A DNA stretch of 64,000 nucleotides from Bacteroidota bacterium. Its GTDB lineage: Bacteria > Bacteroidota > Bacteroidia > M30B66. Shown piece by piece: positions 11,437 through 16,125 of this stretch. The notes below the pieces were generated by a model. The model did not search any database. It was given only the letters and a program-made list of their open reading frames with translations, and was not told the origin of the DNA. Both the position numbers and the translations under genes were made by a program. Positions within the stretch are counted from its first letter, which is position 1, and the number at the start of each line of letters is the position of its first letter. The stretch spans positions 1 to 64,000 of the forward strand of contig JAIXYK010000059.1 in assembly GCA_027490225.1 (NCBI GenBank). The letters are read 5' to 3'.

Positions 11437-13422
11437 TTAGTAATTAAAGAGTTGAAGAAGTTTTTCTTCGAAACGTTTTTTAGGAAGAAAATTTTGTTCT
11501 AACACAGAAGAAAATGGCACAGGAGTATCTAAACTACCAACACGCATCACAGGAGCATCTAAACTTTCGAAGCAATTTTCAGAAATGCGGGCGGCTAACT
11601 CTCCACCAAAACCGCCTGTGAGGCAATCTTCGTGTAAAATAATGACTTTTCCAGTTTTGCGCACCGACTCAAAAACGGCTTCTTCGTCGAGCGGCATTAA
11701 AGTTCTCAAATCTAAAAGGTCAGCATCAATTTCTGGGTGTTTGGCCAAAATTTCTAGTGCCCAGTGTACACCAAAACCATAAGTAATGATGCTCAAAGCT
11801 TTTCCCTTTTTCAGCAGATTTGCTTTTCCAATTTCTATGGTGTAGTAATCATTGCTTACTTCTTCTGCATAGCTTCTGTACAAGGCTTTATGCTCGAAGA
11901 ATAACACAGGATTTGGGTCTTCGAAAGATGCTAAAAGTAATCCTTTAGCATCAGAAGGAAAGGCTGGATAAACCACTTTTAATCCAGGCGTGTGGGTAAA
12001 CCAGGCCTCATTGCTTTGGCTGTGAAACGGACCAGCTGCAACACCAGCACCTGTAGGCATTCTTACCACAACATCTACATTTTGTTCCCAGCGGTAATGA
12101 CTTTTAGCAAGGTTGTTAATGATTTGATTGAAACCTTCTGTTACAAAATCGGCAAACTGCATTTCTACCATTGCTTTCATTCCGTTAATAGAAAGGCCAA
12201 GACCTGTTCCGAGAATGGCAGCTTCGCATAATGGCGTATTTCGCACACGATTTTTTCCAAAACGTTCAACAAAGCCATCTGTTATTTTAAAAACACCGCC
12301 ATATTCGGCAATGTCTTGACCCATTAAGATGAGCTCAGGATGTTTTTCCATGGCCAAAGCCAAACCTTCTGAAATGGCATCTATTAGGCGCTTTTCAGTT
12401 TTTTTATCTGAAGCAGGAAGTGTTGGAGTGAAATGATGTGGTGCATACACATCGTTGAGTTCATATGCAGTATCGGGAATAATTTCAGGTTCTGCAAACG
12501 TAGCAGCAACGCCTTCCTCAATATATTTTTTGAATTCTGCTCTTATTTCAGTGATTTTTTCAGGAGAAAGTACATTTTCGTTCAGCAAGAATCCTTCATA
12601 ATTGCTAATCGGGTCTTTCTTCGCCCAAATGTCGAAGAGCTCTTGGGGCACATATTTAGTTCCAGAAGCTTCTTCGTGTCCACGCATGCGGAAAGTCATA
12701 CATTCTAATAGCCAAGGTCTTTGGTTTTGTTGCATGTCTGCGCGTATTTCGCGAATGGCATCGAGTACTTCCAGCACATTATTTCCATCTACTTGTCGCG
12801 CCGGAATTCCATATCCAGGACCTTTTTCTGTAAATGAATTAAAACGAAACTGTTCATTAGACGGAGTAGAAAGTCCGTAGCCGTTATTTTCAATGATAAA
12901 TATTACGGGTAAATCCCAAACAGCCGCAACGTTTACCGATTCGTGAAAATCACCTTGAGAAGTTCCTCCATCGCCTGTGAAAACGGCAGTAATTTTATTG
13001 GTTTTTTTAAGTTGATGCGCAAGTGCAATTCCATCGGCAACGCCCATTTGTGGGCCAAGGTGAGAAATCATGCCGACAATATGGTATTCATTGGCTCCAA
13101 AGTGGAATGAGCGTTCGCGACCTTTAGAAAAGCCATTAAATTTCCCTTGCCATTGGGTAAAAAGTTGGTGAAATGGCATGCCACGACCTGTGAAAATTCC
13201 CAAATTACGGTGCATTGGCAAAATATATTCATCCGTTTCCATTGCGAGCACAGTTCCTACAGAAATTGCTTCTTGACCAATGCCTGAAAACCATTTAGAA
13301 ATTTGACCTTGTCTAAGCAAGTTGAGCATTTTCTCCTCAATCATTCTCGGGAGGAGCAATGTTTTATATATGTGTAGGAGTTCGGAATCGGATTTATCTT
13401 TCCTTGAAAACTGAAGTTGCAT
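11437..13422 (-). CDS. Fused 2-oxoacid dehydrogenase E1 (alpha-beta), branched-chain/pyruvate type
   Basis: The product is 661 residues from the chosen start. The N-terminal half is E1 alpha, with a thiamine diphosphate motif that starts GDGG at about 150 and ends NN at 179-180. The C-terminal half (about 340-661) is E1 beta, with the phrases EHKALYR and HEDCLTGG. E1 decarboxylates a 2-oxoacid on thiamine diphosphate and passes the acyl group to the lipoyl E2. The fused arrangement is common in Bacteroidota and usually annotated as 2-oxoisovalerate dehydrogenase; pyruvate is an alternative substrate. The reading frame extends upstream to 13482, but the TACTTTTG promoter at 13446-13453 would start transcription near 13440, so the ATG at 13422 (MQLQFSRKDK) is preferred. 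E2 and E3 are not in the window. Confidence 0.93.
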   Translation of the reverse strand: MQLQFSRKDKSDSELLHIYKTLLLPRMIEEKMLNLLRQGQISKWFSGIGQEAISVGTVLAMETDEYILPMHRNLGIFTGRGMPFHQLFTQWQGKFNGFSKGRERSFHFGANEYHIVGMISHLGPQMGVADGIALAHQLKKTNKITAVFTGDGGTSQGDFHESVNVAAVWDLPVIFIIENNGYGLSTPSNEQFRFNSFTEKGPGYGIPARQVDGNNVLEVLDAIREIRADMQQNQRPWLLECMTFRMRGHEEASGTKYVPQELFDIWAKKDPISNYEGFLLNENVLSPEKITEIRAEFKKYIEEGVAATFAEPEIIPDTAYELNDVYAPHHFTPTLPASDKKTEKRLIDAISEGLALAMEKHPELILMGQDIAEYGGVFKITDGFVERFGKNRVRNTPLCEAAILGTGLGLSINGMKAMVEMQFADFVTEGFNQIINNLAKSHYRWEQNVDVVVRMPTGAGVAAGPFHSQSNEAWFTHTPGLKVVYPAFPSDAKGLLLASFEDPNPVLFFEHKALYRSYAEEVSNDYYTIEIGKANLLKKGKALSIITYGFGVHWALEILAKHPEIDADLLDLRTLMPLDEEAVFESVRKTGKVIILHEDCLTGGFGGELAARISENCFESLDAPVMRVGSLDTPVPFSSVLEQNFLPKKRFEEKLLQLFNY

Positions 13423-13445
13423 TGTACGTTTTTGAAATGTAGCGG

Positions 13446-13453
13446 CAAAAGTA
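13446..13453 (-). promoter_or_regulatory. -7 promoter element of the E1 gene (TACTTTTG)
   Basis: The minus strand reads TAATACTTTTGCCGC. It lies 23 bases before the ATG at 13422 and inside the longer reading frame, which decides the start. Confidence 0.7.
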
Positions 13454-13476
13454 TTATAAATTGTAACTTGCGCCAC

Positions 13477-13596
13477 ATGCAAGAGCTCCTAGTTTTAATA
13501 TGTGTTGTAGGTTCGGTTTATTGGTTGTATAGGCATTTCAGAGGCAATGTGAAGACTAAAAAAAATCATGGGTCGGGTTGTGATAATTGTGGGTAG
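13477..13596 (+). CDS. Small single-pass membrane peptide with C-terminal CxxC
   Basis: An ATG-to-TAG frame of 39 codons. The translation opens MQELLVLICVVGSVYWLY, one hydrophobic helix (about 4-18). A basic stretch follows (RHFRGNVKTKK), and the tail is GSGCDNCG with C35 and C38. This matches in size and plan the small FeoB-associated Cys-rich membrane proteins (one helix, Lys/Arg stretch, Cys-rich tail), although no feoB is nearby. A TAACTTG sequence at 13464-13470 is a near match to the -7 box, and a bidirectional hairpin terminator starts five bases after the stop. The gene is divergent from the fused E1. Being framed by promoter and terminator supports it as real; the family assignment is by resemblance only. 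Confidence 0.55.
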   Translation: MQELLVLICVVGSVYWLYRHFRGNVKTKKNHGSGCDNCG

Positions 13597-13600
13597 AATA

Positions 13601-13640
13601 AAAAATGCTCATTCCTCTTTAAGAGAAAGAATGAGCATTT
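13601..13640. terminator. Bidirectional hairpin terminator
   Basis: AAATGCTCATTC pairs with GAATGAGCATTT around a loop of about 14 bases, with an A-run before and T-run on the minus strand. It serves the minus-strand gene at 13662 and can also stop the small gene ending at 13596. Confidence 0.8.
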
Positions 13641-13661
13641 CAAGAAAATATAAAGTTTAGC

Positions 13662-14105
13662 TTAGAATCTTAATCTCAAATTGATACCAACACCTGCCGT
13701 TTCAATTTCAAAGGTGCTTTTGGGTGTTTTTTTCATTGCAAATCCATTTTTCTTATTGTATTTGTTTGAAAGAATTGTTGCATGAATAGCTGAGATTAAT
13801 TGTAAGCCTCCTCCTACAGCAATCATTGAAATTGCAAATTCATCAGTAAGAGCGCCAGTATAGTAAGTAGCTAAACCTCCTCCAATAAGCAATGCTTCAA
13901 CTCCAACTGCAATGAATCCTTCTTTCATCATATCATTTGCAAAATAGCCGTATCCAGGAACTAATAGTGATCCCGCAAAAGTACTAGCAGGGTTTTTATA
14001 CATTCCTTTTGGGTTTTCTTTTACTTCAAACCAAGTATTTTGAGCTTCTATGCTAGTAAAGGCCAAGATTGATGAAAGTAAAAATAAAAGTGTCTTTTTT
14101 TTCAT
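13662..14105 (-). CDS. Exported hypothetical protein with hydrophobic segments
   Basis: The product is 147 residues. A signal peptide (1-21, cleavage after IEAQ) is followed by a conserved-looking NPASTFAGSLLVPGYGYFAND segment near 38-60, then two further hydrophobic stretches, about 64-84 and 90-112, rich in Gly. It ends in LRLRF, a terminal aromatic residue as in small outer-membrane proteins. The phrase PG-GY-Y after a hydrophobic stretch recalls DUF5683-like envelope proteins, but I cannot assign a family with confidence. It stands alone between two terminators. A weak TATTATTG-like box lies upstream. Location is probably the envelope. Confidence 0.7.
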   Translation of the reverse strand: MKKKTLLFLLSSILAFTSIEAQNTWFEVKENPKGMYKNPASTFAGSLLVPGYGYFANDMMKEGFIAVGVEALLIGGGLATYYTGALTDEFAISMIAVGGGLQLISAIHATILSNKYNKKNGFAMKKTPKSTFEIETAGVGINLRLRF

Positions 14106-14301: not shown

Positions 14302-14523
14302 TTATTTTGCAGGAGCAGCAGCTGTGTCAACTTTTGCAGTTGTGTCAACAGTTGCAGCAGCAGCAGCAGCAGCAGCTTCAGCTTCAGCTTTAGCAATTGA
14401 ATCTGCAGTTGCAGCAGCAGCAATAGAATCAGCTTTTGCTTTTTCAGCTTCAGCGTTTCCACCTCCACAAGATGCTAATACAGCGATACCAACTGTAAGG
14501 ATAGCGAATGTTACTTTTTTCAT
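14302..14523 (-). CDS. Ala-rich small lipoprotein (paralogue 1)
   Basis: The product is 73 residues from the chosen ATG. The N-terminus MKKVTFAILTVGIAVLASC is a type II signal with lipobox LASC and lipidated C19. The mature part is GGGNAEAEKAKADSIAAAA followed by an Ala/Glu/Asp run and repeated ADSIA and VDT words, likely one extended helix. It resembles in composition a small Lpp-like or spacer lipoprotein, but no family is recognised. A paralogue with nearly the same first 40 residues lies at 15626-16057. A longer frame starts at 14592, but the TAACTTTG promoter at 14554-14561 puts the transcript start near 14549, so the ATG at 14523 is used. A (GCA)n tract within it could change length by slippage. 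Confidence 0.8.
   Translation of the reverse strand: MKKVTFAILTVGIAVLASCGGGNAEAEKAKADSIAAAATADSIAKAEAEAAAAAAAATVDTTAKVDTAAAPAK
14354..14376. repeat. Trinucleotide (GCA/TGC)n tract inside a lipoprotein gene
   Basis: This is a run of seven to eight GCA units that reads as consecutive Ala codons on the minus strand. It adjoins two further GCTTCA units. Such tracts can gain or lose units by slippage without shifting the frame. Confidence 0.85.
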
Positions 14524-14553
14524 TTTCGTTTTTGTTTTGAGTTTACAAGGGCA

Positions 14554-14561
14554 CAAAGTTA
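14554..14561 (-). promoter_or_regulatory. -7 promoter element of Ala-rich lipoprotein 1 (TAACTTTG)
   Basis: The minus strand reads TAACTTTGTGCCC about 30 bases before the ATG at 14523. It lies downstream of the alternative start at 14592 and so rules that start out. Confidence 0.65.
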
Positions 14562-14868
14562 AAAAAATCTTAAAAAATACAAGCCATTTCATAAAAAATG
14601 TTAAAATTATTTGTGAGAATTAAGCTAACTGCCAGATAAACAGTGCAATAATATTTGTGTTTTTTTGTGATTCTATTAAAGATAGTTGAGAAAAAAGGAT
14701 TTAATGTGTGCTTGACTGATCAAATTGATATTCTTTTTGCGAATTTGCATTGCATTTTGTTAAAATAAGTTAAAATAGCTGAAATAAAACAATAGAACTT
14801 TATCTTATAACATGTATAATTATGTAAATCAAATATTTAAGAAATTTTCAAATGATAAAGTTTTCGTT
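14562..14868. other. A/T-rich intergenic region between divergent lipoprotein genes
   Basis: About 300 bases with no convincing open frame. Apart from the two divergent -7 promoters at its edges I see only A/T-rich sequence with T-runs and scattered TTAAAATA words. No repeat copy or RNA gene was recognised. It may hold upstream promoter or regulator sites that cannot be named. Confidence 0.5.
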
Positions 14869-14876
14869 TACTTTTG
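14869..14876 (+). promoter_or_regulatory. -7 promoter element of the EGF-like lipoprotein gene (TACTTTTG)
   Basis: TACTTTTGCCCCC is a perfect Bacteroidota -7 box and initiation context. It overlaps the first codons of the longer frame at 14874, so the ATG at 14904 is the start. Confidence 0.8.
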
Positions 14877-14903
14877 CCCCCGAAAACAATAAAAACTATA
14901 AAC

Positions 14904-15398
14904 ATGAAAAAAATTATTTTTGGATTATTGGCTGTTACAGCCGTAGCTTTTACTTCTTGTAAAGATGAGTGTAAAGATGTTACTTGTAATAATGGAGGTA
15001 CTTGTACTGAAGGTATTTGCGATTGCCCTTCTGGATATGAAGGAACAAACTGCGAAACTTCTTGGGCATCTGCATTTGCAGGTAATTACAATGTTTCAGA
15101 AACATATACAATCGCTGGTGGTGGAAACGGAACTGATAATTTTTCAAGCGTAATTTCTACAGGTTCAGATCCTAAGAAAATTACTATCAGCAACTTCAGT
15201 TTATCTGGACAAAATATTACTGCTGATTTGGAAACTGCAACTAGCTTAAAAATCAATAACCAAACAGTAACTGTTTCTGGTACTCAATTCGTAGCTAACG
15301 GAACAGGTTCAATTGCTGGTACTACAGTTACTTTGAACTACACACTTGCTACAGGCGGTGTTGTTGCTTTAACAGTAACAGATATCTACACAAAATAA
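14904..15398 (+). CDS. Lipoprotein with one EGF-like domain
   Basis: The product is 164 residues. The signal MKKIIFGLLAVTAVAFTSC places the lipidated cysteine at C19. Residues 23-50 form a six-cysteine EGF-like module (C23, C28, C34, C39, C41, C50) with the typical N-G-G-T-C and C-x-C-P-x-G-Y-x-G phrases. The rest (about 52-164) is Gly/Thr/Ser-rich and predicted beta, ending in LTVTDIYTK. It is probably surface- or periplasm-facing and membrane-anchored, perhaps binding a ligand, but no function is known to me. It is flanked by the two Ala-rich lipoprotein genes on the other strand and has its own strong promoter and terminator. EGF-like modules occur in scattered Bacteroidota lipoproteins, so this is uncommon rather than unique. 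Confidence 0.85.
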   Translation: MKKIIFGLLAVTAVAFTSCKDECKDVTCNNGGTCTEGICDCPSGYEGTNCETSWASAFAGNYNVSETYTIAGGGNGTDNFSSVISTGSDPKKITISNFSLSGQNITADLETATSLKINNQTVTVSGTQFVANGTGSIAGTTVTLNYTLATGGVVALTVTDIYTK

Positions 15399-15625: not shown

Positions 15626-16057
15626 TTATTTCTTTTCAAGAACTTTATCAAATTTTGATTTTGGAGCAGCAGCATCTTTTTTATCTCCACCTGTTGCTTT
15701 ATCAAATTTAGAAGGTTGAGATTTGTCTCCAGAAGCAGCGTCAAATTTGTTTTTTGGTTCCTCTTTTTTAGGTTCCTCTTTTTTCTTTGGTTTAGATGGT
15801 TTTTTGCCACCTTTTGCAGCAGCGTCAGCAGCAGCAATAGAATCAGCTTTTGCTATAGCAGCCAATGAATCAGCAGTTGCTTTTTCAGCAGCCATTGCAG
15901 CTTCCGCAGCAGCAGCTTCTGCTTGCGCAATTGAATCTGCTTTTGCAGCAGCAGCAATTGAATCTGCTTTTGCCTTTTCAGCTTCAGCGTTTCCGCCTCC
16001 GCAAGATGCTAACAACAATAAGCTTGCTGCCAACACAGATAATGTTACTTTTTTCAT
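15626..16057 (-). CDS. Ala-rich lipoprotein with Lys-rich tail (paralogue 2)
   Basis: The product is 143 residues. Signal and lipobox are as in paralogue 1 (MKKVTLSVL...LLASC, C19), and the next 20 or so residues, GGGNAEAEKAKADSIAAAA, are identical to it. Residues about 25-85 repeat KADSIA/ADSLA words in an Ala-rich helix. Residues about 86-100 are Lys/Pro/Glu-rich (PSKPKKKEEPKKEE). The tail holds three copies of a KFD word (NKFDAA, SKFDKA, SKFDKV). Function is unknown; the basic tail might touch peptidoglycan or DNA, but that is speculation. The frame extends to 16108, yet the TAATTTTG promoter at 16087-16094 implies transcription from about 16082, so the ATG at 16057 is used. Confidence 0.8.
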   Translation of the reverse strand: MKKVTLSVLAASLLLLASCGGGNAEAEKAKADSIAAAAKADSIAQAEAAAAEAAMAAEKATADSLAAIAKADSIAAADAAAKGGKKPSKPKKKEEPKKEEPKNKFDAASGDKSQPSKFDKATGGDKKDAAAPKSKFDKVLEKK

Positions 16058-16086
16058 GTTTGTTTTTGTTTTTGAATATTCGGCTG

Positions 16087-16094
16087 CAAAATTA
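16087..16094 (-). promoter_or_regulatory. -7 promoter element of Ala-rich lipoprotein 2 (TAATTTTG)
   Basis: The minus strand reads TAATTTTGCAGCC, 30 bases before the ATG at 16057. The same spacing is seen in paralogue 1. Confidence 0.65.
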
Positions 16095-16125
16095 GAAAGA
16101 AGTAGCATATAAAAAACAACATTAT

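Follow-up and report, generated by a model that had tools for sequence, protein, structure and literature searches.

The annotation of cysteine-rich PF12669 peptides places them either downstream of feoB or within FeoB itself, as one of its domains (PMC8749426; PMC8980893), and a 2022 study of Feo evolution names the translation of such frames into functional peptides as an unanswered question (PMC8749426). A 64,000-nucleotide stretch of Bacteroidota DNA (here called the window) raises this question in another setting, where a frame of 39 codons lies opposite the gene for a fused 2-oxoacid dehydrogenase E1. Is the frame a gene and, if so, is its product tied to E1, to FeoB or to neither? Frames of this kind are conserved, biased towards synonymous change and almost always found in genomes with FeoB; from this our analysis argues that FeoB-associated cysteine-rich frames are translated into functional peptides, many of them from loci away from feoB.

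A 39-residue frame opposite E1

The preliminary description of this DNA had reported a plus-strand frame with one hydrophobic helix, a basic stretch and a CxxC tail, and the frame is present as described (Table 1), translating to MQELLVLICVVGSVYWLYRHFRGNVKTKKNHGSGCDNCG. A longer version of 59 residues, opening at a TTG at 13417, was rejected; the MQ start is common to relatives. AlphaFold predicted a helix over residues 2–28 and a low-confidence tail (averaged over successive blocks of ten residues, pLDDT is 93, 91, 60 and 56), and the genome holds a single match for the peptide. The divergent E1 counts 661 residues from its conserved ATG.

The frame had also been placed between a divergent promoter region and a terminator. 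The E1 side of this claim stood, and the downstream hairpin is strong (folding energy of −17.1 versus −7.0 kcal/mol for shuffles, z −4.6), but the hairpin as a terminator of the peptide gene itself is weak because the terminator scan found no scored T-run on its plus strand; it was scored on the minus strand only, in the position expected for the end of the convergent gene.

Table 1. Features of the peptide locus, in window coordinates
Feature	Position	Strand	Remarks
Fused alpha-beta E1, 2-oxoacid dehydrogenase complex	11437–13422	−	E1_dh, Transket_pyr, Transketolase_C
Divergent intergenic region	13423–13476		54 bp, from peptide start to E1 ATG; one −7-like box per direction
E1-side −7-like box TACTTTTG	13446–13453	−	TAnnTTTG; ends 23 nt before E1 ATG
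Peptide-side −7-like box TAACTTGC	13464–13471	+	one T short of TAnnTTTG
39-residue peptide gene	13477–13596	+	one hydrophobic helix, basic stretch, C-terminal CxxC
Hairpin	13602–13641		terminator-like on minus strand; between peptide gene and convergent gene 13662–14105

The peptide is conserved under purifying selection

Comparison of an informative pair of relatives (G006 and G007) shows purifying selection on the peptide: of the 22 substitutions between them, 15 are synonymous and 7 nonsynonymous (dN/dS 0.07), and 16 fall in third positions. Three pairs among genomes of a second family (G011, G057 and G093 of f3) gave dN/dS values of 0.14–0.26, while the nearly identical G003 and G008, with 1 synonymous and 3 nonsynonymous changes, were uninformative (dN/dS 0.78). 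Loss of the frame or its cysteines in relatives had been named beforehand as the outcome that would count against the peptide; it was looked for and did not occur, frame, start, helix and both cysteines being kept in relatives across families. In 30 aligned sequences C35 and C38 are invariant, and beyond these and the hydrophobic helix little is conserved. A profile made from these 30 sequences (A3) matched 132 of the 135 peptide genomes exactly once; it includes the window peptide, whose own E-value of 5.5e-12 is thus no independent evidence.

The frame is short and its Pfam score lies slightly below cut-off, as a chance frame in an intergenic region might; against the cross-family conservation, the synonymous bias and the single match in nearly every peptide genome, such a spurious origin is extremely improbable. 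The frame is coding, and its gene, tiny and easily overlooked, looks both conserved and real.

Profile evidence relates the peptide to PF12669

What had been claimed as a resemblance to FeoB-associated cysteine-rich proteins proved to be an actual profile match. Using hmmscan, residues 3–39 of the peptide aligned to positions 2–37 of the 44 in PF12669 (FeoB_associated) with an E-value of 8.5e-6 and 26.4 bits, 0.6 bit short of the 27-bit cut-off; this may be the reason that routine annotation would skip it. The E1-divergent counterparts in five genomes (G006, G007, G041, G081 and G090) score above the cut-off, and 29 of the 30 aligned sequences, the window peptide among them, match PF12669 at E ≤ 0.01. 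NCBIfam returned only unrelated families with scores far below their cut-offs. A PF12669 search of the peptide's own genome missed it; since profile searches can miss such short peptides, we used our own alignments alongside PF12669.

FeoC, another Feo accessory, is a cytoplasmic winged-helix protein, whereas the window peptide, which has no FeoC match in the Pfam scan, is predicted to be a membrane helix. The likeness is that of a small FeoB accessory, often with cysteines, as FeoC is described (PMC8749426). With the PF12669 peptides the window peptide shares size, N-terminal helix, basic stretch and cysteine tail, having, as they do, one predicted membrane helix followed by C-terminal cysteines. 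It differs in that its gene is neither downstream of feoB nor fused to it, and in that the motif reported for the family, Cx3-5Cx2-3Cx6-8C (PMC8749426), is absent, the tail holding CDNC only.

The shorter tail is characteristic of the E1-divergent group, a trait that the preliminary description did not foresee. Exactly two tail cysteines occur in 47 of 57 E1-divergent but only 2 of 20 FeoB-adjacent peptides (p 1e-8, for sequences that are related, not independent; two of the 57, L102 and L247 of G166, are identical and probably one genome twice, and the starts of L226, L230 and L258 were untrimmed), and the remaining 18 of 20 FeoB-adjacent peptides carry three or more. Because it has no feoB neighbourhood, lacks the longer motif and falls on one side of this group difference, we do not file the peptide as a FeoB-associated protein proper; judged by profile comparison it is a homologue of PF12669 peptides, a variant with two tail cysteines that lies divergent to E1, and with a CxxC only, its function may have shifted relative to the FeoB-adjacent ones.

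Divergent pairing with E1 across families

The promoter region said to be shared with the fused 2-oxoacid dehydrogenase is no peculiarity of this contig: the divergent position beside E1 is conserved across families. Within the window's family, all eight genomes with an E1 match (G000, G002, G003, G004, G006, G007, G008 and G009) have the peptide beside it, and G001 and G005, which are 80% and 73% complete, have a match for neither. In a set of 100 genomes, a divergent peptide lies within 250 bp of E1 in 27 of 84 E1-bearing genomes, and an intact ORF with a cysteine tail was extracted at all 27 loci. A second, overlapping set of 247 genomes, each at least 90% complete, shows the arrangement in at least 47 of 135 peptide genomes, from 14 families; adding f5 and f18, seen in the 100-genome set, brings the two samples to 16 families, 15 of them besides the window's own. 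Among the matches listed, 51 peptide–E1 pairs share a contig; 47 of these diverge over no more than 250 bp, and the only pair on one strand is separated by 68 kb.

Named Bacteroidota E1 loci present the pairing as well. An intact divergent peptide ORF was found at 5 of 80 E1 loci (L093, L094, L102, L110 and L120), these being the best 80 of at least 585 E1 relatives, and 3 of the 75 loci without a match have less than 400 bp of upstream sequence. A strict motif filter had retained L094 and L102 as convincing, together with chance-looking ORFs at L133, L150 and L152 that were rejected; our own HMM, whose training set included L094 and L102 and left out L093, L110 and L120, raised the count to five. 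Across 32 loci (the 27 genomes and 5 named loci, chosen for having a peptide match, so that presence there is no rate), the gap between peptide and E1 is 28–217 bp, with a median of 59.5.

A predicted compact divergent promoter region

In 19 of these 32 loci a TAnnTTTG box ends 6–29 nt before the E1 ATG (shuffles: mean 0.6, maximum 4), and in 17 an exact TAnnTTTG ends 0–13 nt before the peptide ATG (shuffles: mean 0.3, maximum 3), both counts being uncorrected for relatedness. By-eye inspection found no −33 element at a fixed distance. The window is not among the 17; its TAACTTGC fits instead the TAnnTTGY variant reported in F. psychrophilum (PMC9723704). Among eight members of the window's family, five have a peptide-side box ending 4 nt ahead of the ATG and one, G004, has it 6 nt ahead; neither G009 nor the window has an exact peptide-side box. 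In F. psychrophilum the box is mapped at −12 to −5 (PMC9723704), which would therefore place the transcript start at the peptide ATG in those five members, and the window's own box predicts a leader of about 1 base. Thus, the peptide mRNA is probably leaderless in this family, a form that is reported as uncommon in F. psychrophilum, where it makes up 5.5% (PMC9723704); in B. thetaiotaomicron, 5′ UTRs shorter than 10 nt make up 3.7% (PMC7366714).

Presence of the peptide and of FeoB

The claim that no iron-uptake gene lies near the peptide held for FeoB: the genome's one FeoB_C match is on another contig (G000:C64), and the 16 kb surrounding it contain no peptide of this kind (best match E 4.2). 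Across genomes, however, peptide presence tracks FeoB rather than E1, which the preliminary description had not foreseen. FeoB is present in 134 of 135 peptide genomes versus 76 of 112 peptide-free ones (247 genomes, of which two, absent from the listings, were scored without peptide, FeoB and E1; Fisher p 2.7e-13, uncorrected for relatedness). At least 20 of the 135 have FeoB-adjacent peptides; without 20 such genomes the counts are 114 of 115 versus 76 of 110 (p 3e-11, in the 245 genomes with known family), and at family level p is 0.002–0.02 depending on the filter, one variant dropping three genomes with weak or partial peptide matches (G100, G156 and G250). The sole FeoB-less peptide genome, G100, is such a weak partial match. 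By contrast, the 247 genomes show no association with E1, which is present in 118 of 135 peptide genomes and 95 of 112 others (p 0.58), leaving 17 genomes without an E1 match on either side. The 100-genome set gave FeoB in 54 of 56 peptide genomes versus 28 of 44 (p 3e-5), the exceptions G026 and G095 being only 84–85% complete, and p values of 0.05–0.25 by filter for E1.

Families holding both FeoB states were counted by hand. In f28 the peptide occurs in 2 of 3 FeoB-plus and 0 of 6 FeoB-minus genomes, in f11 in 4 of 4 and 0 of 2, in f4 in 1 of 4 and 0 of 4, and in f2 and f8 in no genome; f28 alone is informative, since the peptides of f11 and f4 adjoin FeoB. All 47 listed E1-divergent genomes have FeoB, and their 14 families show no FeoB-minus genome. 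The co-occurrence is thus partly phylogenetic, with phylogeny only partly controlled. Many homologues adjoin neither E1 nor FeoB and lie in varied neighbourhoods (24 genomes, genes named by eye). Together, these counts indicate that the conserved neighbour, E1, and the gene that peptide presence follows, FeoB, do not clearly coincide.

Candidate functions

We give slightly better than an even chance to a membrane-anchored thiol or metal peptide that would act in trans on behalf of ferrous-iron uptake, its gene sharing a compact divergent promoter with E1; it probably helps in handling iron from a locus distant from that of the FeoB importer. Basic residues mark the cytosolic side of a membrane helix under the positive-inside rule, and since they follow the helix here, the translated single-span peptide, homologous to those accompanying FeoB, would have its N-terminal helix in the membrane and its basic stretch and C-terminal CxxC in the cytosol. 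There it could act for the FeoB encoded elsewhere by holding Fe2+, passing it on or sensing it; as its tail has two cysteines only, a four-thiolate site would have to be completed by dimerisation or with a partner. Its message would be transcribed from the divergent promoter it has in common with the fused E1 and, in this family, would start at or adjoining the ATG. Iron-linked expression is reported for other PF12669 members: one is up 1.8-fold in iron-depleted P. gingivalis (PMC10434189), and one in Bizionia depends on the iron regulator MliR (PMC9478572). Because of this, the pair of thiols that the membrane peptide carries, its family's link to FeoB and the co-occurrence, ferrous-iron handling is the likeliest role, if at little better than even odds. 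The CC-licensed literature searched yielded no published experiment on the E1-linked branch and no published link to E1. A more elaborate version is decidedly unlikely: that a two-cysteine PF12669 branch, spread over many families of one class, uses the E1-divergent promoter to couple ferrous-iron handling to 2-oxoacid metabolism, its dimer forming an Fe site of four thiolates that acts for FeoB in trans.

The main rival has the peptide serve the neighbouring dehydrogenase, as a membrane anchor, a redox partner of lipoyl thiols or an E1 regulator, the two products being kept in balance by the divergent promoter. It accounts for the close pairing at the 32 loci and in 14 families plus f5 and f18, for the distinct cysteine pattern of the E1-divergent type and for an E1 association that neared significance under one filter of the 100-genome set (p 0.05), but not for the distribution: presence does not track E1 in the 247 genomes, 75 of the 80 named E1 loci lack a peptide match, and homologues adjoin FeoB in at least 20 of the 135 peptide genomes. 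We consider it rather unlikely. Comparably doubtful is a general thiol-redox or metal-buffer peptide of the membrane with no particular partner, its neighbours being chance positions with usable promoters; the varied neighbourhoods outside E1 and FeoB and the conservation of little besides two cysteines and a hydrophobic helix would fit it, whereas near-complete co-occurrence with FeoB and the recurring divergent arrangement with E1 would not.

For peptides that work from loci distant from feoB, neighbourhood-based annotation would overlook the link, and the repeated pairing with E1 offers a short, defined promoter region in which to probe a connection between iron and 2-oxoacid metabolism.

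Neighbouring genes

Several neighbours were seen around the peptide and its homologues. On the minus strand of the window, 14302–14592 and 15626–16108 are two paralogous small lipoprotein-like ORFs rich in Ala, Asp, Ser and Lys, each with a lipobox followed by repeats such as KADSIAAA. A pattern scan found similar ORFs convergent to the peptide at 15 of 60 loci (f1, f5, f6, f18, f22, f30 and f47), including G013, G095 and G014, where E1 is unmatched or on another contig. By eye, a phosphofructokinase-like gene (recognised from its N-terminus) follows the peptide on the same strand in three f3 genomes (L180, L182 and L183), and in three genera of f10 (L080, L083 and L201) the homologue lies between metH-like and amino-acid permease-like genes, all on one strand. 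In G075 (L082:6724–7800) a homologue is divergent to a gene that by eye resembles the iron-sulfur repair gene RIC/YtfE, with E1 1.5 kb off. Finally, the plus strand of the window carries a Cys-rich EGF-like ORF at 14874–15398 (CNNGGTCTEGICDCPSGYEGTNCE), and a similar gene adjoins the homologue in L082.
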